A stretch of 64,000 nt of DNA, from positions 62,001 through 126,000 of the forward strand of contig NZ_JAPDHX010000006.1 of assembly GCF_025972045.1 (NCBI RefSeq), given 5' to 3'. This stretch comes from Micropruina sonneratiae (GTDB taxonomy: Bacteria; Actinomycetota; Actinomycetes; Propionibacteriales; Propionibacteriaceae). This document shows positions 51,172-63,493 of this stretch, in pieces (within the stretch, counting starts at the first letter, position 1; every line of letters begins with the position of its first letter). The position numbers and the translations under genes were made by a program. Below the pieces are notes generated by a model that saw only the letters and a list, made by a program, of their open reading frames with translations, was not told the DNA's origin and made no database searches.

Positions 51172-52173
51172 TCACATACCGGCGCGCCAGCCCGCCGTCC
51201 GCACCGGGGCGTCGTACAACTCGGTCAGTTCGTCGTCCAGCCGCATCACGGTCAGCGAGGCGCCCGACATCTCCAGCGAGGTGAAGAAGTTGCCGATCTG
51301 GCTGCGGGTGACGTTGATGCCCTTCTCGGTGAGCACGTCGTGGGCGTGGTTGTACATGATGTACTGCTCGCTCAGCGGGGTGGCGCCCAGACCGTTGATG
51401 TACAGCAGCACGTTCTCGCCCGATTCGAGCTTCAGGTCGGCGAGCACCTTCTCCAGCAGCACGTCGACGATGTCGTCGGCCTTCATCATCGGCACCCGCT
51501 TGACGCCGGGCTCGCCGTGCACGCCGATGCCGAGCTCCATCTCGTCCTCGCCGAGCTCGAACGACGGCTTGCCGACGGTCGGCACCGTGCAGGCGGTCAT
51601 CGCAAGGCCCATGGTGGCCATGTTGTCGTTGGCCTTGGCGGCGATGCGGGTGACGTTCTCGAGGTCGTCGCCCCGGTCGGCGGCCGCGCCGGCCAGCTTG
51701 AACGCGACGATCGCGCCGGCGACGCCGCGGCGTCCGGCCGTGTAGGTGGAGTTCTCGACCGCGACATCGTCGTCGATGACGACGGTCTTGACGTCGATCT
51801 CCTCGAGCTCGGCCAATTCGGCGCCGGTTTCGAAGTTCAGGATGTCGCCGGTGTAGTTGAGGATCAGGTGCAGGACGCCGGCGCCGCCGTCGGCGGCCTG
51901 GGTGGCGGCCAGGATCTGGTCCGGGGTGGGCGAGGAGAAGAACGCTCCCGGCGCCGCGGCGCTGAGCATGCCCTCACCGACGTAGCCGCCGCCGAGCGGT
52001 TCGTGGCCGGAGCCGCCGCCCGAGATGACGCCGACCTTGCCCTGTACCGCGCCACCGGCGCGGCACACGTACAGCGGATCGTCGTGCAGTTCGACGATGT
52101 CGGCGTACGCCGTGGCGAAGCCGCGGTTCATCTCGTCCAGCACGGTGGCCGGATCGTTGATGATCTTCTTCAT
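51172..52173 (-). CDS. Dihydroxyacetone kinase, DhaK subunit (no DhaL partner)
   Basis: Starting at 52173 (MKKIINDPATVLDEMNRGF, GAGGAGAG upstream), the 333-residue product is a complete DhaK domain: GGGSGHEPLGGGYVGEGMLSAAAPG (52-76) with His 57, DDDVAVENSTYTAGRRGVAG, and the substrate His 219 in ELGIGVHGEPGVKR, which forms the covalent hemiaminal with the ketose. An ATP-binding DhaL domain, needed for phosphorylation, is neither fused nor encoded next door. It is the third gene of the E1-E2-DhaK operon. Related kinases act on dihydroxyacetone or erythrulose. Confidence 0.88.
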   Translation of the reverse strand: MKKIINDPATVLDEMNRGFATAYADIVELHDDPLYVCRAGGAVQGKVGVISGGGSGHEPLGGGYVGEGMLSAAAPGAFFSSPTPDQILAATQAADGGAGVLHLILNYTGDILNFETGAELAELEEIDVKTVVIDDDVAVENSTYTAGRRGVAGAIVAFKLAGAAADRGDDLENVTRIAAKANDNMATMGLAMTACTVPTVGKPSFELGEDEMELGIGVHGEPGVKRVPMMKADDIVDVLLEKVLADLKLESGENVLLYINGLGATPLSEQYIMYNHAHDVLTEKGINVTRSQIGNFFTSLEMSGASLTVMRLDDELTELYDAPVRTAGWRAGM

Positions 52174-52216: not shown

Positions 52217-53581
52217 TCAGAGCAGGAGTTGAATGGGGCGGGCGATCAGGGCGGAGAAGGCCTGCAGGTACTGCGCCCCCAGCGCGCCGTCGATGGCGCG
52301 ATGGTCGAAGGACGCCGTGATCCGGCAGGTGGTGGCGACCGTGAGCTGGCCGTCGGGGCCGACCCAGGGACGTGGCTTGCCGGAGCCGATCGCCAGGATC
52401 GTGCTCTGCGGCGGGTTGAGGATGGCGGCGAACTCGTCGACGTCGAACATGCCGAGGTTGCTCACCGTCAGCGAGCCGCCCTCGAGTTCCCGCTGCTGCA
52501 GCCGGCCCTCGCCGGCCCGGCCGGCGGCGTCCTTGATGGCGGCCGACAACTGCGTGATGCCGAGTTGTTCGACGCCCCTGATCACCGGGGTGACCAGGCC
52601 GCGTTCGGACGCCACCGCGACCGCGACGTCGCTGCTGCCGAAGGCGAGCAACTCCTCCTCGGTCCAGCTGACGTTCGCCTCGGGCACCTTCGCCAGCGCC
52701 AGTCCGGCCGCCTTGACCAGCAGGTCGTTGACCGACACCCGCACCTCGGCGTCGGCGTTGATCTGGGCGCGCAGCTCGAGCAGCGGCCCGAGATCGAGTT
52801 CCCGGGTCAGGTAGAAGTGCGGCGCGGTCTGCTTGGACGCCTGCAGCCGGCTGGCGATCGCCCGCCGCAGCCGGGTGTGCGGAATGCGCTTCACCTCACC
52901 GGGCTCGACGGCCGGCACCGGGGCCGCGCCGGCGGCCGCGGGCTTGGGCGCCGAGGGAGTGATCGGCGGGGCGGCGTGGTGGGCGGCGTCGGCGTAGGCG
53001 GCCTCGACGTCCTTCTTGGTGATCCGGTTGTTCGGCCCGGTGCCGGGAATGTCGGCCAGTTCGAGGCCGTACTCGGCGGCCAGCCGGCGGGCCAGCGGGC
53101 TGGAGAAGATCCGCTCTCCCGGACGCCGCGCCGGGCGGGCCGCGGGGGCGGAAGGCGTCGGCGGCGCGGGCGGTGCCGGCTTGGGGGGCGCGGGTTCGGC
53201 GTCCGGGGCCTGCATGTCCTCGGCGACGGCGATCGTGGCGACCGTCACCTCGTCGTCGGCGGCCTGTTCGGCGGCCTCGACGGCTGAGGGCTGCGCGCCG
53301 GTCACGCTGGCGGCCAGGTTGGCCGCGATCGACGGGTCCTCACCGGGCTCGGCGAGCACCGCGATCGGGTCGCCGACCGCCACGTTGGTGCCGCCGTCGA
53401 CGAGCAGGGTGTGCACCACGGCGTCGGACTCGGCCTCGATCTCGACCATGGCCTTGTCGGTCTCGACCGTGGCCAGCACGGCGCCGCGGCTGACCGTCTC
53501 GCCGGCGGCTACGGTCCAGCTCTCCAGCAGGGCGGTGTCGGCGTCGGCGGAGACGCCCGGCATGCGAAGCAGCGAGGCCAT
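52217..53581 (-). CDS. E2 subunit of a 2-oxoacid/acetoin dehydrogenase complex
   Basis: The 454-residue protein has an N-terminal lipoyl domain (about 5-75, lipoylated Lys in ETDKAMVEIEAE), a Pro/Ala linker, a peripheral subunit-binding domain (SPLARRLAAEYGLELADIPGTGPNNRITKKDVEAA, about 150-190) and a C-terminal acyltransferase core ending with the catalytic SFDHRAIDGALGAQYL. It transfers the acyl group from E1 to CoA. The E1 gene ends 3 bp before its start. No E3 gene is in the window. Confidence 0.92.
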   Translation of the reverse strand: MASLLRMPGVSADADTALLESWTVAAGETVSRGAVLATVETDKAMVEIEAESDAVVHTLLVDGGTNVAVGDPIAVLAEPGEDPSIAANLAASVTGAQPSAVEAAEQAADDEVTVATIAVAEDMQAPDAEPAPPKPAPPAPPTPSAPAARPARRPGERIFSSPLARRLAAEYGLELADIPGTGPNNRITKKDVEAAYADAAHHAAPPITPSAPKPAAAGAAPVPAVEPGEVKRIPHTRLRRAIASRLQASKQTAPHFYLTRELDLGPLLELRAQINADAEVRVSVNDLLVKAAGLALAKVPEANVSWTEEELLAFGSSDVAVAVASERGLVTPVIRGVEQLGITQLSAAIKDAAGRAGEGRLQQRELEGGSLTVSNLGMFDVDEFAAILNPPQSTILAIGSGKPRPWVGPDGQLTVATTCRITASFDHRAIDGALGAQYLQAFSALIARPIQLLL

Positions 53582-53583
53582 GA

Positions 53584-55758
53584 CTATCCCTTCAGTTCGT
53601 TCAGGGCGGCGACGATGTCGTCGGTGTTGGCGTTGGCGGCCGTTTCGAGCGCCTTGGAGATGCTCGGAGCGGCCTCGCCGCCCTGGACCCGGATCACCGG
53701 CGCGTCCAGCCAGTCGAACAGCCGGCGTCCGATCTCACCGGCCAGCCAGCCGCCGTAGGAGGTGCCCTGGGCGCCCTGCTCGACGATCACCACGTTGTTG
53801 GTCTTCTTGACCGACGCCTCGATGGTCTCCCAGTCGAGGGACGCCCGGTCGAGCCAGCGCAGGTCGATCACCTCGCCGTCGACGCCCGACTCTTCGACGG
53901 CGTCCAGGCAGCGCTGCACCATCGACAGGTAGCTGATCAGCGTGACGGCCGAACCCTCGCGTCGGACGGCCGCCTTGCCGAACGGCAGCACGTAGTCGAG
54001 ATCCTTGGGCGCCAGGCCCTCCAGCTTGTACAGGTCGGCGTCGTGCTCGAGCACCGCGACCGGGTCGCGGGTCAGCATCGCCGCGTTGAGCAGTCCCACG
54101 TAGTCCAGGGCGGTGGAGGGGGCGATGATCCGCCAGCCCACCGAGGTGGACAGGATGCCTGCCGGGTCCATCGAGTGCTGCGAGCCGTAACCCGTTGTCG
54201 TACCGATCTTGAGCCGCATCAGCATCGCCATGTCGTGGTCGCCGCCGAACATGTGCCGGGCCCGGCCGATCTGGTTGAAGATCTGGTCGGCCGCCACCCA
54301 GATGAAGTCGGCGTACATCAGCTCGACGACCGGGTAGTAGCGGCCGTCGAGCGCCATGCCGCCGCCCAGGCCGGTGAACCCGGCCTCGGCGATCGGGGTG
54401 CCGAGAACCCGCCCCGGGAAGTCGACGGGCAGGCCCTTCGTCGCGCCGCGCGAGCCGCCGTTGAGCTTGTGCACGTCCTCGCCGAGCACCACGATCGAGT
54501 CGTCGGTCTCCATCCGGCGGTGCATCACCGCGGCGATGGTGTCGACGAAGCGCTGCTTGACCAGTTCGTCGGCGCCGAAGCTGTCGTCGGTGCGGACGCG
54601 GTCGCCGCCGTCCGGCCAGTCGCCGCGGATGCCGACGTCGATGAAGGACGCCGACGGCCACAGCTCGGGACGGATGCGCAGCTGCCCGGGGCGCCCGTTC
54701 GGGTCGGCCTCGGTGATCCGGCCGGAGAGCTCGGCCATGATCGCCTTGCACGACTTGCGCAGGGCGTCCAGCTGCTCGCGGGTGGCGATGCCGAGACGCT
54801 CGAGGTGCTTCTCGGCCAGGTTCAGCGGGTCGCGGTCGCGCCAGCCGGCCTCCTCCTCCTTGGAGCGGTAGCCGAACGCGCTGCCCGGGAACGGGCCGTT
54901 CTGGTGGAAGTAGCGGTAGGTGTCGGCCTCGACCACGGCCGGCCCGCCGCCGCCCCGGACGTGCTCGAGCACCTTGTCCATCAGCAGTTTGACGCTCAGG
55001 GCGTCCTGACCGTCGACGCGCCAACTCGGGATGCCGAAGCCCAGGCCGCGCACGCTCAGCCGCGGGTCGGCGGTCGACTCGTTGACCGTGGTGGAGACCG
55101 CGTACTGGTTGTTCTCGATGAAGAAGATCGTCGGCAGCTTCCAGGCGGCGGCGATGTTCAGCGCCTCGAGCGTCGAGCCGATGTTGGACGCCCCGTCGCC
55201 GAAGTAGGTGACCGAGACGGCATCGGTGCCGGCCAGCTTGTGCGACATCGCGAAGCCGGTGGCGAACGGGACGGCGCCGCCGACGATGGCATTGGTGCCC
55301 ATCGCGCCGACTTCCTTCCACTGCAGGTGCATCGAACCGCCGCGGCCGTGGCAGTAGCCGTCGGTGAGGCCGGCGATCTCGGCGAGGGTTCGGTACAGAA
55401 CCGAGACCACGTCTTCGGTCCAGTCGGCGCCGATGCTGAAGCCGTCGGGCTGGACGGCGTTGAGCGCCTTGGCCAGGAACTGGTGGTGGCCGCGGTGCGA
55501 ACCGTTGATCTGGTCCTGGACGGTGAGCGGAACGGCGGAGCCGACGGCTCCCGCCTCCTGGCCGATCGAGGAGTGCGCCGGGCCGTTGATCAGCTTCTGT
55601 CCGGCCAGGTCGAGAACCTGCTCCTCAAAGGCGCGGATGAGGTGCATCTGCACCGTCATCGACTCGAGCAGTGCGGCGTCGGCGGCATCCCAGTCCGCCT
55701 CGGTCGCCGTGAACTGATTCCAGGTGGCCGACGGCTGCAAAGGCTCGGTGATCGGCAT
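53584..55758 (-). CDS. Thiamine-dependent E1, alpha and beta subunits fused
   Basis: The 724-residue protein joins an alpha half (1-370) with the TPP motif GDGASNIGSTLEAL and NN at 187-217, HRGHHQFLAKALN, GYCHGRGGSMHL, to a beta half (about 390-724) with VLGEDVHKLNGGSRGATKGL, GTPIAEAGFTGLGGGMALDG, and YGSQHSMDP. Alpha and beta are normally separate genes. The best overall match is acetoin or branched/2-oxoacid dehydrogenases. ATG 55758 lies 10 bp after GAGGAGG. It begins the operon divergent from gntR. Confidence 0.92.
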   Translation of the reverse strand: MPITEPLQPSATWNQFTATEADWDAADAALLESMTVQMHLIRAFEEQVLDLAGQKLINGPAHSSIGQEAGAVGSAVPLTVQDQINGSHRGHHQFLAKALNAVQPDGFSIGADWTEDVVSVLYRTLAEIAGLTDGYCHGRGGSMHLQWKEVGAMGTNAIVGGAVPFATGFAMSHKLAGTDAVSVTYFGDGASNIGSTLEALNIAAAWKLPTIFFIENNQYAVSTTVNESTADPRLSVRGLGFGIPSWRVDGQDALSVKLLMDKVLEHVRGGGGPAVVEADTYRYFHQNGPFPGSAFGYRSKEEEAGWRDRDPLNLAEKHLERLGIATREQLDALRKSCKAIMAELSGRITEADPNGRPGQLRIRPELWPSASFIDVGIRGDWPDGGDRVRTDDSFGADELVKQRFVDTIAAVMHRRMETDDSIVVLGEDVHKLNGGSRGATKGLPVDFPGRVLGTPIAEAGFTGLGGGMALDGRYYPVVELMYADFIWVAADQIFNQIGRARHMFGGDHDMAMLMRLKIGTTTGYGSQHSMDPAGILSTSVGWRIIAPSTALDYVGLLNAAMLTRDPVAVLEHDADLYKLEGLAPKDLDYVLPFGKAAVRREGSAVTLISYLSMVQRCLDAVEESGVDGEVIDLRWLDRASLDWETIEASVKKTNNVVIVEQGAQGTSYGGWLAGEIGRRLFDWLDAPVIRVQGGEAAPSISKALETAANANTDDIVAALNELKG

Positions 55759-55838
55759 GGCTACGGTGCCTCCTCGTTGACGCGTGCCCCATCGCTGCGG
55801 GAGATGCGGGTTGGGGTAAGCTCGGGCTACAAACTACA

Positions 55839-55859
55839 AGACATGACCGTACATGTACA
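55839..55859. promoter_or_regulatory. Candidate GntR operator in the E1/gntR intergenic region
   Basis: GTACATGTAC at 55849-55858 is a perfect 10-bp palindrome and is preceded by AGACATG (55839-55845). The same AGACATG occurs in the palindrome between the kinase and zinc dehydrogenase genes, and TGTACA occurs before the aldolase gene. The site lies between the divergent starts of E1 and gntR. Confidence 0.6.
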
Positions 55860-55904
55860 GCCAAGTTGCGGGCTCGTTCCGAGATGCGGCGAAGGAGGGA
55901 CACC

Positions 55905-56681
55905 GTGACCACCACCCTCAATCGGGACTCCGCGGTCCCGCTGTACCTGCAGCTCGCCGATGAACTGCGCACCAAGATTCTCAGCGGTGAATGGCAGCCT
56001 GAGCAACGGATTCCGTCAGAGAACGAACTGAACCAGATCTACTCGATCAGCCGGATGACCATTCGGCAGGTGCTCGGCAAGCTCGTCGACGAGGGTTTGG
56101 TCTTCCGGGTTCACGGCAAGGGAACGTTCGTCGCGCAGCCCAAGATCGCGACCCGTTCGCCCTCGTACCACGGCGTCCGCGAACAGTTGGAGCAGCAGGG
56201 CTACTCGACCCGTACCGAACTGATCAACTCGGGCACCGTCGAGGCCGACGCCCGGCTGGCCCGCCAGCTCGATGTGCAGGTCGGCACCCCGCTGCACATG
56301 GTCGAGCGGCTGCGGTACGCCGAGGACACCCCGATCAGCCTGCACAAGTCGTACGTGCCGGTGCGGCTGGCCCCGGCCCTGCTCGACCACGACCTGACCC
56401 AGCAGCAGCTGTGCCAGGTACTGGCCGGCGACTACGGCCTCGACATGGTCTACGTGCACGAGTCGCTGGAGTCGCTCACGCCGACCCCCTCGGAGCTGAC
56501 CGCCCTGCGCGTGCGCCGCGGGACGCCGCTGCTGCTGCTCGAACAGCGGATCAAGGACGCCTCGCACCGCCTGTTCGAGTACACGCGGATCAAGTTCCGC
56601 GGTGACCGGGTGCGGCTGGAGTTCGACTACGACCTGAGCGCGCTGGGCACGACGAAGAAGCGCCAGTTGGCCTTCAGCTGA
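55905..56681 (+). CDS. GntR-family repressor, HutC subfamily
   Basis: GTG 55905 follows GGAGGG at normal spacing and is chosen over the earlier ATG codons. The 258-residue protein has an N-terminal winged helix (SAVPLYLQLADELRTKILSGEWQPEQRIPSENELNQIYSISRMTIRQVLGKL, about 8-60) and a C-terminal UTRA ligand domain (about 85-245) with TPLHMVERLRYAEDTPISLHKSYVP. UTRA domains sense sugar phosphates or amino acids. It probably controls the surrounding carbohydrate genes. A bidirectional terminator follows. Confidence 0.92.
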   Translation: MTTTLNRDSAVPLYLQLADELRTKILSGEWQPEQRIPSENELNQIYSISRMTIRQVLGKLVDEGLVFRVHGKGTFVAQPKIATRSPSYHGVREQLEQQGYSTRTELINSGTVEADARLARQLDVQVGTPLHMVERLRYAEDTPISLHKSYVPVRLAPALLDHDLTQQQLCQVLAGDYGLDMVYVHESLESLTPTPSELTALRVRRGTPLLLLEQRIKDASHRLFEYTRIKFRGDRVRLEFDYDLSALGTTKKRQLAFS

Positions 56682-56711
56682 CGCTGACGTTCGCGCGCCG
56701 GCCGAGCAGAA

Positions 56712-56757
56712 ACAGTGTGAGTCCGAACATCGAGTTCAATGCTCGGACTCACACTGT
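56712..56757. terminator. Bidirectional terminator between gntR and the kinase operon
   Basis: A perfect 15-bp stem (ACAGTGTGAGTCCGA, 56712-56726; complement 56743-56757) encloses a 16-nt loop that itself contains a short GAAC/GTTC pair. It is followed by TCTTT on the plus strand and TTTCT on the minus strand, so it can end both the gntR message and the opposing kinase operon. Confidence 0.85.
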
Positions 56758-56897
56758 CTTTCAGACCCCGTCGCCGCGCTTGTGGCGACGACGGTGTGCG
56801 GCAGCGGGGAGGGGAGTTCCACGGGTTGCGGGTCGAGCCCGCGGCGCCGGCGCTCCAGGGTGCCGGTGATGTCGTCGATGCCGGTGATCCACTTCAC
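56736..56897 (-). CDS. Possible 53-residue protein at the end of the kinase operon
   Basis: GTG 56897, close after GGAG, opens a 53-codon frame reading VKWITGIDDITGTLERRRRG, then LDPQPVELPSPLPHTVV, and stopping inside the terminator at 56736. It lies 5 bp after the dehydrogenase stop on the same strand. The composition is protein-like with a helical first half, but the stop lies inside the terminator stem, so either the terminator acts after translation or the frame is not used. No family is recognised. Confidence 0.3.
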   Translation of the reverse strand: MKWITGIDDITGTLERRRRGLDPQPVELPSPLPHTVVATSAATGSERQCESEH

Positions 56898-56902
56898 TGC
56901 TC

Positions 56903-58240
56903 CTATACGCCGCCGCCCGCCGTCGCGGCCCGCGCCAGTACTCGATCGATCAACTCCGCCGTCCACTCGCCGGTCATCACCAGCAGGTCGGGCAGGGTGA
57001 GCCGGTCGCGCATGTACGGCAGCGCCAGCAGGGTCCAGGCCACCTGATCGGCCGAGACCGGGGGAGTGAGCTCGCTGAACCGGGCCGCCGCACCCCAATG
57101 CCGCAGCGTGGTCGCCGACCGCTGGGGGGTGCCCAGGTAGCCGAACAGCGTCTCGAGCAGTGCGGCCCGGTCACGGTCGCAAACAGCCTTGTCAGCGGCG
57201 TTCCAGGCAGCGACCTTCCGCGCCACCGCCGTCCAGCACTCCTGCCCCAGCGAGCCGGAAGGGTCGATGGAAGCCCAGGTGTCGCGCACCCGCTGCTCCA
57301 GGTCGGCCGGATAGGTCAGGTCTGCCCAGGGCCGTTCGAACAGCGCGGACGTCTCGCGCACCTCGGCCCACAACGCGGTACAGACCACCGTCGCCACGCC
57401 CACCTGGGCGCCGTGCAGGTCGTGCTCGACGCCTCGGGCCATCGCGGCCATGTCGAGGATGTGGCTGGTCAGGTGCTCCGAACCCGACAGCGGCGCCGTC
57501 GAATCGGCGACGCCGATCACAAGCCCGCCGACGGTCAACGAATCGACCAGGGCCTTGCGTGCTCGGCCCGGGTCCGGGTCGGTGAGCCCCTCCACGGCGT
57601 CCAGCACGGGCCGGACCGCCTCGTCGGTGAACGGGCCGTCCAGGCCCAGCGAACAGGCCAGGTACCAGTCCGCCGGGGCCGACCAGATCGCGATCGCGTC
57701 CCCGACGCCCGAACGGTTCAGCCGGGCGGGTGCCGCGTCGATGACCCGGTCGTCGATGATCAGCCCCGTCGGCCACACCGAGGGCCTGGTGCGCTTGGCA
57801 CCGCCGATCACCAGGACGCTGAGCGGATCGGAGAAGCCGTTGACCGAGGCCGCGGTCTGGATCGCCACCAGGGGCGCACCAGAGCGCGCGGACACCACCT
57901 TGCCGAGATCGGTGATGGTGCCGGAACCGACGCTGACCAGCAGCGACGGGCGTCCGACCTCGGCCACGGCGTCCTCGACGGTGGCCTCGTCGAGCGCTAC
58001 CTGAGCGTGGGTGGCCCGGACCGTCACCCGGCGGGCGGCGCCCACCAGGTCGGCCACCCACGCCAGCAGGTCGCGTCCGTCGGCGAGTTTCGCCACGTCA
58101 TCGGTGAGGATGACGCGCTCGCCGTCGCCGGCCAGCCGACGGCACAGGGCGGGCAGTTCGCCCAGTGCCGCCGGACCGGTCGCCAGGAGGCCGAGAGCCC
58201 CCTGGGAGACTTCGCGGGCGAATGACTCGTAGCCGGTCAT
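56903..58240 (-). CDS. sn-glycerol-1-phosphate dehydrogenase-like enzyme (iron/zinc alcohol dehydrogenase family)
   Basis: ATG 58240 overlaps the kinase stop by 4 bp. The 445-residue enzyme has the NAD-binding GSGTITDLGK (105-114) and NGFSDPLSVLV, and metal ligands Asp 181 (GVGDAIAIWSAPADW), His 256/260 (GSEHLTSHILD) and His 276 (DLHGAQVGVATV). This layout is that of AraM/EgsA, which reduce dihydroxyacetone phosphate or a ketose phosphate. It is slightly longer than the usual 390-400. In Bacillus, araM also sits in a sugar operon with a kinase. The substrate may be another phosphorylated polyol. Confidence 0.85.
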   Translation of the reverse strand: MTGYESFAREVSQGALGLLATGPAALGELPALCRRLAGDGERVILTDDVAKLADGRDLLAWVADLVGAARRVTVRATHAQVALDEATVEDAVAEVGRPSLLVSVGSGTITDLGKVVSARSGAPLVAIQTAASVNGFSDPLSVLVIGGAKRTRPSVWPTGLIIDDRVIDAAPARLNRSGVGDAIAIWSAPADWYLACSLGLDGPFTDEAVRPVLDAVEGLTDPDPGRARKALVDSLTVGGLVIGVADSTAPLSGSEHLTSHILDMAAMARGVEHDLHGAQVGVATVVCTALWAEVRETSALFERPWADLTYPADLEQRVRDTWASIDPSGSLGQECWTAVARKVAAWNAADKAVCDRDRAALLETLFGYLGTPQRSATTLRHWGAAARFSELTPPVSADQVAWTLLALPYMRDRLTLPDLLVMTGEWTAELIDRVLARAATAGGGV

Positions 58241-59781
58241 CCGCGCCGGGTGATGGCCTGCAGCTTGTCCCAGATGGAGGGCATCGCCTGGCGGTACTCC
58301 TTGTAGATCTCGAAGTACTCGTCGTAGAGCGCAGTCCTCTTCTTCTTGGGCTTGTACGTGCGCAGGATGTTGACGGTCGAGTCGGCGCCCTGCTCGTAGC
58401 TCTCGAACATGCCCACCCCGACGCCGGCGACGATCGCGGCGCCCTTGGCGCCGAACTCGGTGCCGGCGGGCACGACCACCTGGCGGCCCAGCACGTCGGC
58501 GAAGATCTGCGCCCACACCGGCGAGTTCGCGCCGCCGCCGGCCATCCTGACGACCTTCACCTCGGTCGGGATGGCGTCCAGGCAGTCACGGATGCCGTAG
58601 GCGACGCCCTCGTACACCGCGCGCAGCAGGTCGTTGCGGGTGTGTGCGCCGGTGATGCCGATGAAGGACGCCCGGGCGCTCGGCTTCACGAACGGGGCCC
58701 GCTCGCCACCTGGGGCGGTGTAGCCGTGGAACATCACGCCTCGGGAGCCGACCGGAACCGAACTGACGACCTCGTCGAGGTACTCGAAGAAGGTGAACTG
58801 CGGGCCGCGGGCCTCGGCCTCACGGCGGAAGCTGCCGCCGAACTCGCGCAGGTACCAGTCCACGTTGGGGGTGCAGGAGTTCATCCCGAGGGCCCGGATC
58901 CAGGTGGTCGGGCTGTGCGGAATGACCCAGCCGACGTCGTCCGGCTCGATCGTGTCGCCCAGGTCATCGGTGGCCACCGTGACGATGCCGGCGGTGCCGA
59001 TCACCGCCATGCAGTCTCCGGGCCGCGCCACTCCCACGCCGAGCGACGACGCGGTGATGTCCATCTGGCCCTTGAAGACCGGGGTGCCCTCGACCAGACC
59101 GGTGACGCCGGCGGCCTCGGCGGTGATGCCGCCGATGTTGGTGATCGGCGACTTCGGCTCGGGCAGCACCGACTTGGCGTCGGTCAGGCCGAACGCGGCC
59201 AGTACCTCGTCGGACCAGTCGCGGGTGCGGACGTCGATGCCGGCCAGCGAGGCGTCCGACGGATCGGTGGAGAGGTCACCGGTGAGCTTGTACTCCACCC
59301 AGTCCTTGCACCACAGGTTGGTGGCACCCTCGAGGATCTCGGGTTCGTTCTCGACCCGCCAGCGCAGCAACGCCGACGCGGTACCGGCGTAGGGGCCGAG
59401 GCCGGAGATCTGGAATTGCTTGCTGATGGTGCCGTCGGCGTACCAGGTGTCGATGATGTCGGCGGCGCGGCCGTCGGTCCACAGGTACGCCGGCCCGGCC
59501 GGCTCGCCCTCGGAGTCGACCAGCCACGTGCCGTCGCCCTGGCCGGTGGCCGATACCGCGACGATGTCGGCGGCCCTCACCGACGAGCCCTCGATGGCGT
59601 CCCGGATGGCCAGGGTGGCGGCCACCCAGACCGTCTCCATGTCCTCCTCGGCCATGTAGGTGGTCGGGTTCACGATCGGGACGTTGTGCGCGCCGCGGCT
59701 CAATTCGTTGCCGTGTTCGTCGAAGATGGCTGCCTTGATCACACTGGTGCCGGCATCGATGCCGAGCAGGTACTGGGGCAT
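58237..59781 (-). CDS. FGGY-family carbohydrate/polyol kinase
   Basis: The start MPQYLLGIDAGTSVIKAAIFD at 59781 follows GGAAAGGG. The 514-residue kinase has the two FGGY halves: N-terminal GIDAGTSVIK, VSATGQGDGTWLVD and AYLWTDGRAADII, C-terminal GTAGIVTV, GGERAPF and RMAGGGANSPVWAQIFADVLGRQVVVP with GAKGAAIVAG. The AGTSVIK entry and length resemble erythritol kinases rather than glycerol or xylulose kinases, but specificity cannot be proven. It is transcribed with the G1PDH-like gene and divergent from the zinc dehydrogenase. Confidence 0.88.
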   Translation of the reverse strand: MPQYLLGIDAGTSVIKAAIFDEHGNELSRGAHNVPIVNPTTYMAEEDMETVWVAATLAIRDAIEGSSVRAADIVAVSATGQGDGTWLVDSEGEPAGPAYLWTDGRAADIIDTWYADGTISKQFQISGLGPYAGTASALLRWRVENEPEILEGATNLWCKDWVEYKLTGDLSTDPSDASLAGIDVRTRDWSDEVLAAFGLTDAKSVLPEPKSPITNIGGITAEAAGVTGLVEGTPVFKGQMDITASSLGVGVARPGDCMAVIGTAGIVTVATDDLGDTIEPDDVGWVIPHSPTTWIRALGMNSCTPNVDWYLREFGGSFRREAEARGPQFTFFEYLDEVVSSVPVGSRGVMFHGYTAPGGERAPFVKPSARASFIGITGAHTRNDLLRAVYEGVAYGIRDCLDAIPTEVKVVRMAGGGANSPVWAQIFADVLGRQVVVPAGTEFGAKGAAIVAGVGVGMFESYEQGADSTVNILRTYKPKKKRTALYDEYFEIYKEYRQAMPSIWDKLQAITRRG

Positions 59782-59854
59782 TGAGCACCCTTTCCGGACG
59801 GGGACGCGCTCCGCTGCGCGTTCACGGGTGGCAAGGATGCTAAACAATCTTGTA

Positions 59855-59866
59855 TAGACATGTCTA
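59855..59866. promoter_or_regulatory. Perfect 12-bp palindrome between kinase and dehydrogenase genes
   Basis: TAGACATGTCTA (59855-59866) is a perfect palindrome in the 125-bp divergent promoter region, preceded by TA to give TATAGACA. The half-site TGTCTA(TA) recurs before the aldolase gene and in a relaxed form before E1/gntR. HutC-type GntR repressors bind palindromes of this size with GT-N-TA type half-sites. Confidence 0.65.
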
Positions 59867-59906
59867 GTGGTGGACAGACGTGGTGTCGCATGCTACGAAA
59901 ATCGGC

Positions 59907-60941
59907 ATGCGCGCCCTGGTGAAGTACGCCCCGGGTCCCGGCCACGTCGAGCTCCGCTCAGTCGAGCGTCCCTCGCCGGGCGCGGGGCAATTGCTTGTCG
60001 ACGTGGCCTACGCCGGCGTGTGCGGAACCGACCGCAGCGCGCTCGACGGTCACTTCACCGGGCTGATCCCGCGCACGCTGGGGCACGAGGCGTCCGGGGT
60101 GATCTCGGCGATCGGGCCCGGTGTCGTGGGCGACTGGTCGGTCGGCGACCGGGTCACCTTCGAGACGGACGCCTACCTGTGCGGCACCTGCCTGTACTGC
60201 CGGGCCGAGCAGTACCAACGCTGCCCCCACCGCAAGGGCATCGGCACCACCGCCAACGGTGCGCTTGCGGACGCACTGGTGATGCCCGAACTGGCCGTCC
60301 ACAGGTTGCCCGATGGGGTGTCGCTGCTGGCGGCGGCACTCACCGAGCCGTTGGCGATCTGCGTGCACGCGGTCATCGAGCGCAGCCCATCGCTGGCCGG
60401 CGAGGTGGTGATCGTCACCGGTCCCGGTGCCATCGGCGCGCTGACCAGCGCCGTCGCCGGCCAGGTGGGCGCCACGACCGTGCTGGTCGGACGTACCCGG
60501 CACGCCGACCGGCTTGCCGACGCCGTCGCCCGAGGCATCGCCGACCACGCGCTCGACGGCGATGCCGTCGACGTCGAGGCGTACGTGAAGTCCCTCACCG
60601 ACGGCTACGGTGCGCACACCGGCTTCGAATGCTCGGGCGCCAACCACTGGCCACGGGCCCTGCAGCCGATGGTGCGCCGGGGCGGCCGGGTGGTGCTCGT
60701 CGCGCTGTACCACGGCGAGGTTCCGGTCGACTTCGACCTGCTGGTCAACCGCGAACACGAGATCGTCGGCTCGCGCGGCAAGAACGCGCAGAGCTACCGC
60801 ACGGCGCTGAGATTGATGGCTGACAAGCGCATCGACGCCGAATCGTTCATCTCCGACGTGCTGCCGCTGGAACGCTGGGAGGATGGCCTCGACCTCGTTG
60901 CCCAGGGTCGCAAAGTGGTCTTCGAGGTCGGGGGAGCGTAG
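59907..60941 (+). CDS. Zinc-dependent medium-chain alcohol/polyol dehydrogenase
   Basis: From MRALVKYAPGPGHVELR (59907; no ribosome site is visible, leaderless translation possible) the enzyme has 344 residues. Catalytic zinc ligands are Cys in AGVCGTDRSALDGHF and His-Glu in RTLGHEASGVI; the structural zinc cysteines are in CGTCLYCRAEQYQRC. The NAD fold is VVIVTGPGAIGALTSAVAGQVGA. It resembles sorbitol, threitol or galactitol dehydrogenases and should oxidise a polyol or sugar. It diverges from the kinase gene. Confidence 0.9.
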   Translation: MRALVKYAPGPGHVELRSVERPSPGAGQLLVDVAYAGVCGTDRSALDGHFTGLIPRTLGHEASGVISAIGPGVVGDWSVGDRVTFETDAYLCGTCLYCRAEQYQRCPHRKGIGTTANGALADALVMPELAVHRLPDGVSLLAAALTEPLAICVHAVIERSPSLAGEVVIVTGPGAIGALTSAVAGQVGATTVLVGRTRHADRLADAVARGIADHALDGDAVDVEAYVKSLTDGYGAHTGFECSGANHWPRALQPMVRRGGRVVLVALYHGEVPVDFDLLVNREHEIVGSRGKNAQSYRTALRLMADKRIDAESFISDVLPLERWEDGLDLVAQGRKVVFEVGGA

Positions 60942-60964
60942 CGCTAGCCAAGGTTCTCCCAAGT

Positions 60965-60982
60965 TGTCTATAGTTGTACATA
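60965..60982. promoter_or_regulatory. Candidate GntR operator before the aldolase gene
   Basis: TGTCTATA (60965-60972) and TGTACATA (60975-60982) are direct repeats one helical turn apart, matching at six of eight bases. The first is the exact reverse complement of TATAGACA found at the kinase promoter. A -10-like TATAGT (60969-60974) overlaps it, so a repressor bound here would block the aldolase operon. Confidence 0.55.
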
Positions 60983-61038
60983 CGAGTTTGTCCGTCGTTA
61001 CCCAGCAGACCCAGCGTCGAGTCATGTGGAGGAGCCCC

Positions 61039-61920
61039 ATGCCATACGTCAACACCCTTGATCTGGTCAATGCGGCCAAAGGCAGGGGCTACGCGGTTCC
61101 GGCGATCAACATCGTCGACCCACTGACCATCAAGGCGATCGTGGAGGCCGCCGACTCGGTGGGCTCGCCGGTCATTCTGCAGACCTCGGTGAAGACCGTG
61201 AAGTCGGCGGGGGCGGGCATCCTGCACTACGCCGCGAAGGACGCCGCCGAGGCGGCGTCCGTCGGGGTCTCGCTGCACCTCGACCACTGCCCCGATCGAG
61301 AGGTGATCACGCTGGCGCTCAAGCACGGCTGGAGTTCGGTGCTGTTCGACGCCTCGGATCGTGATCTCGACCAGGCTCGCAAAGAGACCGCCGAGGTATG
61401 CGAAGAGGCGCACGCACTGGGCGCCAGTGTCGAGAGCGAGATCGAGAACATCATCGGCGTCGAAGACGGCGTCGGCTCCGACAAGGCCAAACACTCCTAC
61501 ACCGTCGATCAGTTGATCGAGGTGGCCCTGGAGACCGGCACCGACCTGATGGCGCCGCAGCTGGGCACGGCGCACGGCATGTACTCCGCACAGCCGGTGC
61601 TGCTGCCGCAGCGCGCCCGGGAGATCACCTCCGCGTGCGACATCGCGGTCGTGCTGCACGGCGGCACCGGACTGAGCAACGCCGAGTTCGACGAGTTCAT
61701 CGACGCCGGGGTGACCAAGATCAACATCTCCACCGCGCTCAAGCGGGCCTACATGACCTCGGCGCTGGAGTACCTCAAGCAGTGCGAGCAGACCAACACG
61801 TGGGAGCCGACCAAGCTGTTCGAGCCGATGATCGCGGCGTCCAAGGACCTGCTGGTGACGTTCGCGGGCATCTTCCACTCGACCGGCAAGGACGGGGCTG
61901 CCAAGGGCGGTGCCCAGTGA
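61039..61920 (+). CDS. Class II ketose-phosphate aldolase (FbaA/KbaY/GatY family)
   Basis: ATG 61039 follows GGAGGAG. The 293-residue enzyme carries the class II zinc site: LHLDHCPDRE (Asp and His near 75-78), SVESEIENIIGVEDG, MAPQLGTAHGMYSAQPVL (His) and VVLHGGTGLSNAEF (His), with INISTALKRAYM for the phosphate. It cleaves a ketose phosphate or bisphosphate to dihydroxyacetone phosphate and an aldehyde. GTAHGMYSAQPVL differs from the usual GTSHGxY of fructose-bisphosphate aldolase. It is coupled by GTGA to the HAD phosphatase gene. Confidence 0.9.
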   Translation: MPYVNTLDLVNAAKGRGYAVPAINIVDPLTIKAIVEAADSVGSPVILQTSVKTVKSAGAGILHYAAKDAAEAASVGVSLHLDHCPDREVITLALKHGWSSVLFDASDRDLDQARKETAEVCEEAHALGASVESEIENIIGVEDGVGSDKAKHSYTVDQLIEVALETGTDLMAPQLGTAHGMYSAQPVLLPQRAREITSACDIAVVLHGGTGLSNAEFDEFIDAGVTKINISTALKRAYMTSALEYLKQCEQTNTWEPTKLFEPMIAASKDLLVTFAGIFHSTGKDGAAKGGAQ

Positions 61921-62690
61921 GCGGGCACGCGCTGATCCTGGACTGCGACGGCGTCCTGGCCGACACCGAGAAGGACGGCCATCTCGTCGCCTTCAACCAG
62001 GTGTTCGAAGAGGAGGGCTACCCGTTCCGGTGGTCGGAGGACGAGTACGCGGTACTGCTCAAGGTGGGCGGCGGCAAGGAGCGGATGAAGGCCTACCTGA
62101 GCCAGCACCCCGAGCTCGACATTCCCGGCCGCGACGACCTGGACGCCCTGCTCGCGCAGGTGCACAAGCGCAAGAGTGCGTGCTACCAGGAGATCGTGAA
62201 CAGCGGACGGATCCCCGGCCGCCCCGGCATCAAGCGACTGGTCGAAGCGGCACTGGACGCGGGGTGGCGGGTCGCGGTGGCGTCCACCTCGGCGATCCCG
62301 AGCGTCGAGGCGGTGGCGATCGCGGTGCTCGGTCAGGCGACCCGGAACCGGCTGTTCGGCATCTACGGCGGCGACATCGTTCCGGCCAAGAAGCCCGCGC
62401 CCGACATCTACCTGTACGCCCTGGAGCAGTTGGGCCTGCAGCCCGGCGACGCCGTCGTCGTGGAGGATTCCGAGTCGGGGGCGAAGGCGGCCGCAGCGGC
62501 CGGCATCGCCCACATCGTCACCGTTTCGCACTTCACCGCCGACGACCCGTTCCCCGACGCCCGGATCGTGGTCTCGGACCTGGGCGAACCCGGCGCCCCG
62601 GCCGCGCTGATCGCGGGCGACGATGTCCGCGACGCCGAAGGGCTGATCACCGTCGCGTCGCTGGAGCGCATCGTCGGCGAGCACCGGTGA
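61917..62690 (+). CDS. HAD phosphatase, CbbY/beta-phosphoglucomutase-like
   Basis: GTG 61917 overlaps the aldolase stop. The 257-residue protein has LILDCDGVLADTEKDGH (nucleophile Asp and acid-base Asp), the motif II Thr/Ser in VAVASTSAIPS, KKPAPDIYLYALEQL (Lys) and VVEDSESGAKAA (acidic motif IV). The cap follows motif I as in CbbY and beta-phosphoglucomutase. It probably removes a phosphate from a sugar phosphate made in this pathway or acts as a metabolite-repair enzyme. Confidence 0.88.
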   Translation: MSGHALILDCDGVLADTEKDGHLVAFNQVFEEEGYPFRWSEDEYAVLLKVGGGKERMKAYLSQHPELDIPGRDDLDALLAQVHKRKSACYQEIVNSGRIPGRPGIKRLVEAALDAGWRVAVASTSAIPSVEAVAIAVLGQATRNRLFGIYGGDIVPAKKPAPDIYLYALEQLGLQPGDAVVVEDSESGAKAAAAAGIAHIVTVSHFTADDPFPDARIVVSDLGEPGAPAALIAGDDVRDAEGLITVASLERIVGEHR

Positions 62691-63493
62691 GCGCAGGTTT
62701 CCCGACGGTTGCGGTGCTGCCGCCGGTGCTGATCGGCGCGTCCACCAAGGCGTACCTGGGGCTGGCCGAACTCGCCCGTTGGGCCGAGGTGGTCTCCGCC
62801 GGCCTCGGTGAGCTGGACCGCGGAAACCGTCCCCACGGTCCAGGCACGCCCTACCTGTGCGTGCCGGCGCCGCTGCTGCCGCTGGTCGGCCCCCCGTTGA
62901 CGGACGCCGGGCTGCTCGTCGGCGTCCAGGATGTCTCGCGCTTCGGCCCCGGCGCCCACACCGGTGAAACCACCGCCGAGGTGCTCGCCGAGCTGGGGTG
63001 CCGGCTGGTGATGATCGGGCACCCGGAGCGTGCCCGCGACCAGCACGAGACCCTCGACGAGTGCCGCGGCAAGGCGCTCGCCGCCGCCCGCAACGGCATC
63101 GTGCCGATCCTGATCGCCGGCGAGCCGACCCGTGGAGCCGACCCCGAAGCGGTCATCGCACCCCAGCTCGACACCGTGCTGGCCGACGTCCCGACCGACT
63201 TCCCGGTCATCGTCGCCTACGAGCCGTCCTGGGCGATCGGGCAACCCGAGCCCGCGCCGGGCTCGCACATCGCCGCCACGACCGGCTCGATCCGTGAGTT
63301 GCTGCACCGCCGCGGACGCGGCCACGCCGCCCGCATCGTCTACGGCGGCAGTGCCGTGGTCGGCACCTACACGGCCATCGTCGAGGCGTGCGACGACGCC
63401 GCCCAGCGTCCGGACGGCATCTTCCTGGGCCGCGGCGGGTTGGCGCCGGAGAACTTCCTGGCCACGGTGGACGAGGTGCGCGCGGTCAGCTGA
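62687..63493 (+). CDS. Triosephosphate-isomerase-like protein
   Basis: GTG 62687 overlaps the HAD stop (GTGA). The 268-residue protein has the TIM fold: catalytic Lys 21 in LIGASTKAYLG (in place of the usual NWKM), His 112 in MIGHPERARDQHET, and Glu 179 in VIVAYEPSWAIGQPEP, with the phosphate-binding IVYGGSAVVG and GIFLGRGGLAPENFL. All three catalytic residues are kept, but the N-terminal motif is unlike housekeeping TpiA. Relatives in polyol loci isomerise erythrulose phosphates. It ends the aldolase operon. Confidence 0.85.
   Translation: MSAGFPTVAVLPPVLIGASTKAYLGLAELARWAEVVSAGLGELDRGNRPHGPGTPYLCVPAPLLPLVGPPLTDAGLLVGVQDVSRFGPGAHTGETTAEVLAELGCRLVMIGHPERARDQHETLDECRGKALAAARNGIVPILIAGEPTRGADPEAVIAPQLDTVLADVPTDFPVIVAYEPSWAIGQPEPAPGSHIAATTGSIRELLHRRGRGHAARIVYGGSAVVGTYTAIVEACDDAAQRPDGIFLGRGGLAPENFLATVDEVRAVS

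Follow-up and report, generated by a model that had tools for sequence, protein, structure and literature searches.

Predicted operators of a GntR/HutC-type repressor at three promoter regions of a kinase, dehydrogenase and aldolase locus in Micropruina sonneratiae

Do the promoter regions of one gene cluster of Micropruina sonneratiae share an operator, and if so, which protein would read it? The cluster lies in the 64,000-nucleotide stretch analysed here (the window; contig C14:62001-126000 of the strain's genome of 3,516,312 bases, labelled G000). A gene for a GntR/UTRA regulator is divergent from the gene for the E1 subunit of a dehydrogenase, the genes for an FGGY kinase and an iron-type dehydrogenase are divergent from that for a zinc-containing dehydrogenase, and an aldolase gene has a promoter region of its own (Table 1). 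A preliminary description had noticed words shared by these three regions and proposed a single GntR operator class. This proposal holds for all three promoters: sites 1, 2 and 3, in the E1/gntR gap, the kinase/Zn-dehydrogenase gap and before the aldolase gene, respectively, are, as predicted from the sequence, with high probability the operators of a GntR/HutC-type repressor, the product of the gene at 55905-56681. They are assigned to this adjoining GntR because of conserved footprints in relatives, rarity in the genome, co-occurrence with the GntR gene, and a match between one residue of the protein and one base of the site.

The palindromes GTACATGTAC (55849) and TAGACATGTCTA (59855) and the repeat TGTCTATAGTTGTACATA (60965), from which the proposal had started, each occur once in the window, at these positions. 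The words AGACATG, TATAGACA and TGTACA are shared among them as described, and their specificity in 64 kb is mixed: TATAGACA is present only at its two expected places, AGACATG gives five matches at four places, two of them unrelated (32270 and 49421), and TGTACA gives nine matches. Perfect palindromes in this 71% G+C window number 137 of 10 bp and 40 of 12 bp, of which six and two, respectively, are at least half A+T. The three regions are indeed the promoter-bearing gaps of the locus; the remaining gap, between gntR and the iron-type dehydrogenase gene, is convergent and contains a terminator-like hairpin.

The gene group with the GntR is also found in Micropruina, Microbacterium, Herbiconiux, Agrococcus, Schumannella and Mycolicibacterium komossense, and in a smaller form in Micromonospora; the GntR relatives in the Micropruina records show 84-89% identity. 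When the corresponding gaps are placed side by side, the element that they conserve is seen to be not a palindrome but a ladder in which the half-site WTGTMYA recurs at 10-bp steps, although one step often completes the HutC palindrome GTMTAKAC. The palindromes had been regarded as the operator unit, and in this respect the proposal has to be replaced by a 10-bp ladder of TGT half-sites. In site 1, the weakest of the three copies, the half-sites TTGGCTG, ATGTACG and ATGTCTT follow each other at 10-bp steps (minus-strand ladder TTGGCTGTAC-ATGTACGGTC-ATGTCTTGTAG). The ladders of sites 1 and 3 are retained in the other Micropruina loci L010-L013. In 44 hand-picked promoter regions, close relatives included, compared with 200 shuffles, 41 TGT-to-TGT pairs were found at 10 bp (3.1 expected; shuffle maximum 12) and 11 at 20 bp (2.6 expected), and a reduced set of 27 regions gave 23 and 8 pairs, respectively.

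The sites might instead be three independent operators, each a perfect or near-perfect palindrome made from AGACATG, TATAGACA and TGTACA half-sites. The words are present, and the TGT-ACA pair at 3 bp, which is TGTACA itself, is enriched (24 versus 2.5 expected). Comparison with the relatives makes this explanation improbable, since at site 1 the palindromic symmetry and AGACATG are lost whereas the ladder is kept. In the four other Micropruina loci AGACATG is changed to GGACATG in three and to ATACATG in M. glycogenica, and in the last the counterpart of GTACATGTAC is ATACATGTAC, while the rungs persist. Furthermore, TGT-N7-TGT is present in 36 of the 44 regions (shuffled mean 2.9), against 20 of the 44 for GTMTAKAC (shuffled mean 0.39).

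Rarity was examined with the compact motif SWTGTMTAKASNNGTM, matched exactly, that is, with no mismatch. It was drawn up after Micropruina and several foreign sites, and its strongest tests are the unseen genomes G029, G036, G066 and G111. Many equal matches at unrelated sites were not seen in the genome of the strain: the motif, which site 1 is too degenerate to match, is exact at four places (sites 2 and 3, C14:129556 and C1:491732), all of which are promoters of this gene set, and none at an unrelated gene. The last two places lie between a HAD/RuBisCO-like gene pair and a GlpK-like kinase gene, and before a split transketolase. The strict palindrome GTMTAKAC is found at site 2 and at these two sites; sites 1 and 3 deviate from it. 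The operator of the GlpK-like divergon is retained in three other Micropruina genomes, and the RuBisCO-like gene is MtnW-like, with an NCBIfam score under the cut-off. For the first transketolase half, the six Micropruina genomes contain one other relative at E <= 1e-40, in G002 (46% identity).

Across the six Micropruina genomes, 14 of the 15 exact places are at promoters of this gene set, and no exact place was found in G002, a Micropruina without the GntR whose genome is 80% complete. In eight genomes of other genera, all 12 exact places are inside gntR loci, in seven of the eight genomes; the reversed pattern gave two. Two other patterns were tried and set aside. The strict HutC pattern TGTNTANACA has two places in the 3.52-Mb genome, site 2 being one, so that sites 1 and 3 escape it; the reversed control gave four forward and four reverse matches, and the rarity of TGTNTANACA alone is for this reason no evidence. 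The longer composite WTGTMTAKASWTGTMYA, with up to three mismatches, gave two places with none, one with one and the rest with three, mostly noise (21 matches versus 15 for the control).

The occurrence of the motif follows that of the GntR gene. Among 77 genomes of the family (ortholog at E <= 1e-60; the Micropruina genome G003 was outside the draw), ten have a GntR ortholog. Exact sites are present in seven of these ten and in 4 of the 67 GntR-negative genomes (Fisher p 1.4e-5), and without Micropruina in three of six and 4 of 66 (p 0.010), whereas the reversed pattern shows no link to GntR (1/10 versus 12/67). The matches in the four GntR-negative genomes are not near homologs of the regulon genes searched. 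In 100 Microbacteriaceae genomes, the ortholog is present in two, both with exact sites (one of them being the seed); sites are present in 4 of the 98 GntR-negative genomes. In G111, the new positive of this draw, the sole exact site precedes gntR by about 90 bp, and in G029 an exact site is just before the aldolase-HAD genes, adjoining gntR.

The sole exact site in G066 is 45 bp before the likely ATG of a tktN/tktC split transketolase; this site type had been found first in the strain's own genome, then in G066. Adjoining it is a second, non-exact ladder (L136:7277-7296; 29.3 bits). The gntR cluster of G036 contains the genes for the GlpK-like kinase, the RuBisCO-like protein, the triosephosphate isomerase (TIM), the aldolase, the HAD protein, E1, E2 and both transketolase halves. 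The two exact sites of G036 are outside this cluster, one preceding a HAD paralog that faces a fused aldolase-dehydrogenase gene, the other between two divergent genes, one of which matches DeoC, near an FGGY kinase. The data from G066, G036 and Micropruina support both added members, and the regulon probably includes the GlpK-like kinase with the divergent HAD/RuBisCO-like pair, and the split transketolase.

The regulator gives 80.7 bits with PF00392 and 120.3 bits with PF07702, and has the domain layout of the HutC subfamily. It was not taken as the histidine-utilisation repressor HutC (TIGR02018; 139.3 bits against a cut-off of 220), and the nine neighbouring proteins scanned are not hut enzymes. 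The nearest solved relatives are NagR/YvoA and DasR. In NagR, Arg38 reads G-5 and Arg48 reads G-4 (PMC4333415). The window GntR has Asn at the position of Arg38 and keeps the Arg48 contact residue (R49 of P0001). The dre-site class of NagR/DasR (Arg38/Arg48; GG at -5/-4) was rejected, since the 38 equivalent is Asn and sites 2 and 3 carry T at -5. Among the 19 distinct orthologs that share at least 49% identity, 18 have Asn, and the other (G044, L144) has Leu. In a survey of this family, Arg at this position is associated with G, and Asn, if weakly, with A/T (PMC4494728). On the assumption that each upstream site belongs to its adjoining protein, six of the seven Arg proteins with an upstream GTnTAnAC show G at -5 in one half or both. 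Sites 2 and 3 have T instead of G at -5, beside GT, and this fits the Asn that takes the place of NagR Arg38 in the window GntR.

Real operators of another regulator with similar specificity, for example a second GntR/HutC or a LacI protein, would look much the same. The HutC-type consensus is common to many regulators (PMC4494728), the genome has a GntR paralog (C13:341376-342050; L008, L059), and a LacI gene is near the phosphofructokinase (PFK) site in Microbacterium. This explanation is unlikely all the same: the specificity residue of the paralog is Arg, and its upstream site GATTGGTGTAGACCATTG, with GG, is of another class; the sites are directly at the gntR gene in several genera; and both the draw of 77 and that of 100 genomes link the motif with this GntR. 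A site of the GATTGGTGTAGACCATTG class, nearly identical, is also upstream of the paralog's counterpart in G005.

The sites were also scored with matrices, from all of which the Micropruina E1/gntR sites were deliberately excluded. The 24-column matrix was made from 27 sites of other genomes, ten of them from Micropruina including counterparts of sites 2 and 3, and the 20-column matrix from 16 sites, all outside Micropruina. The PFK-side site of L019 was excluded from the 20-column and third matrices, and L136 and L138 from the third. With 24 columns, site 3 (33.6 bits), site 2 (30.8) and site 1 (23.4) take ranks 1-3 in the window; the best score elsewhere in the window is 9.6 bits, and none of 60 simulated 64-kb sequences goes above 14.1. 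With 20 columns, sites 3, 2 and 1 give 29.6, 28.5 and 21.5 bits, the eight best window places are all in these promoters, and the transketolase and GlpK-like sites give 29.7 and 24.2 bits, respectively. Chance, or the generic A+T-rich sequence of core promoters in a genome of 71% G+C, is a very improbable source of the shared words: although sites 2 and 3 overlap promoter-like hexamers (a pair at 59866-59837 on the minus strand, and TATAGT at 60969-60974, respectively) and TGTACA and AGACATG also occur elsewhere in the window, the other-genome matrices place the three promoters at the top of the window and far above simulated maxima, all four exact places in the genome are at this gene set, and the co-occurrence with the GntR gene and the 10-bp spacing peak stand against it as well.

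Several points weigh against assigning the sites to this GntR. The counts in the own genome and much of those in other genera are not blind, the motif having been written after the sites were viewed. Neither a strict HutC palindrome nor a match to the compact motif is present at site 1. No exact place was found in the Micromonospora genome G013, nor in three of the ten GntR-positive family genomes (G044, G051 and G082), which carry weaker matrix matches of 16.1, 22.7 and 23.2 bits. One exact place in a Micropruina genome (G004, C137:5487-5502) is unexplained; it is on a 10-kb contig without homologs of regulon genes. With one mismatch the compact motif is near noise (44 matches versus 31 for the reversed pattern). 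In its third version, the matrix by itself scores as high as 25.0 bits at unrelated loci, most of them richer in A+T (the top one from Ruminococcaceae), and 29.0 bits at a locus of a GntR-negative family genome. The spacing regions were hand-picked with close relatives among them, and they show other peaks: 11 at 5 bp and 12 at 15 bp for TGT-TGT, and, besides the 24 at 3 bp, 14 at 7 bp and 16 at 13 bp for TGT-ACA. These minor peaks fit mixed direct and inverted half-sites, as expected. As to the residue, the Arg protein of L028 has no G at -5, and one of five Asn loci with such a site, L021 of Micromonospora, has G at -5 in one half.

For the assignment to the adjoining GntR, we infer binding, repression and the kind of inducer as follows. 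The operator would be built of TGT half-sites that recur on one strand at intervals of 10 bp, which would put successive ones on the same face of the helix. A dimer would occupy the palindrome-like pair, and additional subunits or dimers would settle on the extra rungs. Predicted core promoters are overlapped by sites 2 and 3, and site 1 is just downstream of a -10-like hexamer that seems to belong to the gntR promoter and is present as TANGCT in the E1/gntR gaps of L010-L020; binding should for this reason block RNA polymerase, at all sites, by occlusion or as a roadblock, and would include autoregulation. The repressor would be released when its UTRA domain binds a metabolite of the pathway, which is most likely a phosphorylated sugar.

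Table 1. Predicted operators and genes of the locus and of the added regulon members (window positions unless a contig is given)
Feature	Position	Strand	Remarks
Site 1, E1/gntR divergon	55834..55867	-	Ladder AACTTGGCTGTACATGTACGGTCATGTCTTGTAG; includes GTACATGTAC
Site 2, kinase/Zn-dehydrogenase divergon	59849..59867	+	CTTGTATAGACATGTCTAG; holds HutC palindrome TGTATAGACA (59851-59860) and TAGACATGTCTA
Site 3, aldolase promoter	60963..60986	+	GTTGTCTATAGTTGTACATACGAG, half-sites at 10-bp steps; ladder GTTGTCTATAGTTGTACATA
Operator between HAD/RuBisCO-like gene pair and GlpK-like kinase	C14:129556-129571 (L060:11557-11572)		About 3.6 kb past window end
Operator before split transketolase	C1:491732-491747 (L058:7733)		Adjoining DAHP synthase-like gene
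TAAGCT, conserved -10-like hexamer (TANGCT), putatively of gntR promoter	55817..55822	+	Just upstream of site 1
DhaK, dihydroxyacetone-kinase-type subunit	51172..52173	-	TIGR02363 above cut-off
E2 acyltransferase	52217..53581	-	PF00198, PF02817, PF00364
Fused E1 alpha-beta subunit, 2-oxoacid (pyruvate-dehydrogenase-like) dehydrogenase	53584..55758	-	PF00676, PF02779, PF02780
GntR/HutC-subfamily regulator, GntR helix-turn-helix and UTRA domains	55905..56681	+	PF00392, PF07702
Strong terminator-like hairpin	56713..56756	no strand	Between convergent gntR and iron-type dehydrogenase gene
Iron-containing dehydrogenase, glycerol-1-phosphate dehydrogenase type	56903..58240	-	PF13685; NF002022 under its cut-off
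FGGY sugar kinase, xylulokinase/AI-2-kinase-like	58237..59781	-	PF00370, PF02782
Zinc-containing alcohol/polyol dehydrogenase	59907..60941	+	PF08240, PF00107; alternative start codon at 59880
Class II ketose-bisphosphate-type aldolase	61039..61920	+	PF01116
HAD phosphatase, beta-phosphoglucomutase-like	61917..62690	+	PF00702; TIGR02009 under its cut-off
TIM paralog	62687..63493	+	PF00121

Taken together, the locus and the added regulon genes resemble a pathway module in which a polyol or ketose would be phosphorylated, oxidised and split into triose phosphates, feeding acetyl-CoA. As a guess from the gene types, the cleavage would be by aldol and transketolase reactions, with an inducible pyruvate-dehydrogenase-like E1/E2. 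The scan of the locus genes gave no DhaL or DhaM partner for DhaK; three Dak2 genes are on other contigs, so that a DhaL-type partner exists in the genome but cannot be assigned to this DhaK. The TIM paralog adjoining the HAD gene was not found in the loci L010-L013.

Some further differences among the relatives should be mentioned. In M. glycogenica (L013, 8491-10611), an apparent natural deletion has removed from this locus E1, E2, the FGGY kinase and the iron-type dehydrogenase, together with most of dhaK and most of the zinc-type dehydrogenase gene; gntR, aldolase, HAD and their upstream sites stay. In G005 (L011/L129), about 2.6 kb of extra DNA lies between gntR and the iron-type dehydrogenase gene, with an open reading frame (L129:729-1940) whose product we take to resemble HipA-type proteins. 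In Microbacterium, a PFK gene (PF00365; L016:3988-5100) adjoining E2 has its own GTATATAC-type site, and likewise a PFK-looking reading frame of Mycolicibacterium (L019:4174-5295). PFK may be in the regulon in these two genera.

In this way, three short words have grown into a predicted regulon that spans five promoter regions and for which an owner, a footprint and a specificity residue can be proposed. It brings together genes from two contigs (for kinases, aldolase, E1/E2, RuBisCO-like protein and split transketolase) that would not be connected from their annotation, and it suggests a catabolic pathway that deserves to be identified in the glycogen-storing wastewater genus Micropruina. The regulon would be a new one with operators of known kind, perhaps for a polyol or ketose. 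A bolder picture, tentative and rather doubtful at present, is a polymer-like ladder in which several GntR dimers bind cooperatively along one DNA face every 10 bp, and which switches an undescribed polyol or ketose pathway coupling the RuBisCO-like protein, the split transketolase and a dedicated E1/E2 dehydrogenase.

Catabolic loci for tetritols, glycerol or dihydroxyacetone share FGGY and Dha kinases, dehydrogenases and a TIM paralog with the window locus. In contrast to them, the combination of E1/E2, class II aldolase, RuBisCO-like protein and split transketolase matches no locus found. Literature searches for tetritol, RuBisCO-like and GntR/E1/Dha combinations gave no matching published locus, and the substrate of the pathway is for this reason left unnamed; no literature on Micropruina with GntR was found in these searches. 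The regulon is also not named in Suvorova et al. (2015), as far as that survey is covered here (PMC4494728).

Among the regulators, NagR/YvoA and DasR, with their dre-sites, are the closest solved relatives and share the Arg48 contact residue (PMC4333415); the window GntR differs in having Asn for Arg38, and sites 2 and 3 have T and not GG. In the survey, the HutC consensus is GTMTAKAC, with 4 nt between GT and AC, and weaker extra boxes are at 7-12 nt from the site centre (PMC4494728). The present sites resemble such HutC operators with extra half-sites; in contrast to those described, the 10-bp rung is here in more promoters than the palindrome (36 versus 20 of 44). The operator of FarR is given there as direct repeats TGTATTAWTT (PMC4494728). 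FarR is likewise a HutC-subfamily regulator with a TGTA-type repeat, no strict palindrome and a printed unit of ten letters. The unit here is approximately WTGTMTAKAS, differing after TGTMTA, and many sites also hold the palindrome; this comparison is between operators. Since both the extra boxes of HutC operators and the direct repeats of FarR are already described, the ladder is an architecture of known kind, with the second rung unusually strong here.

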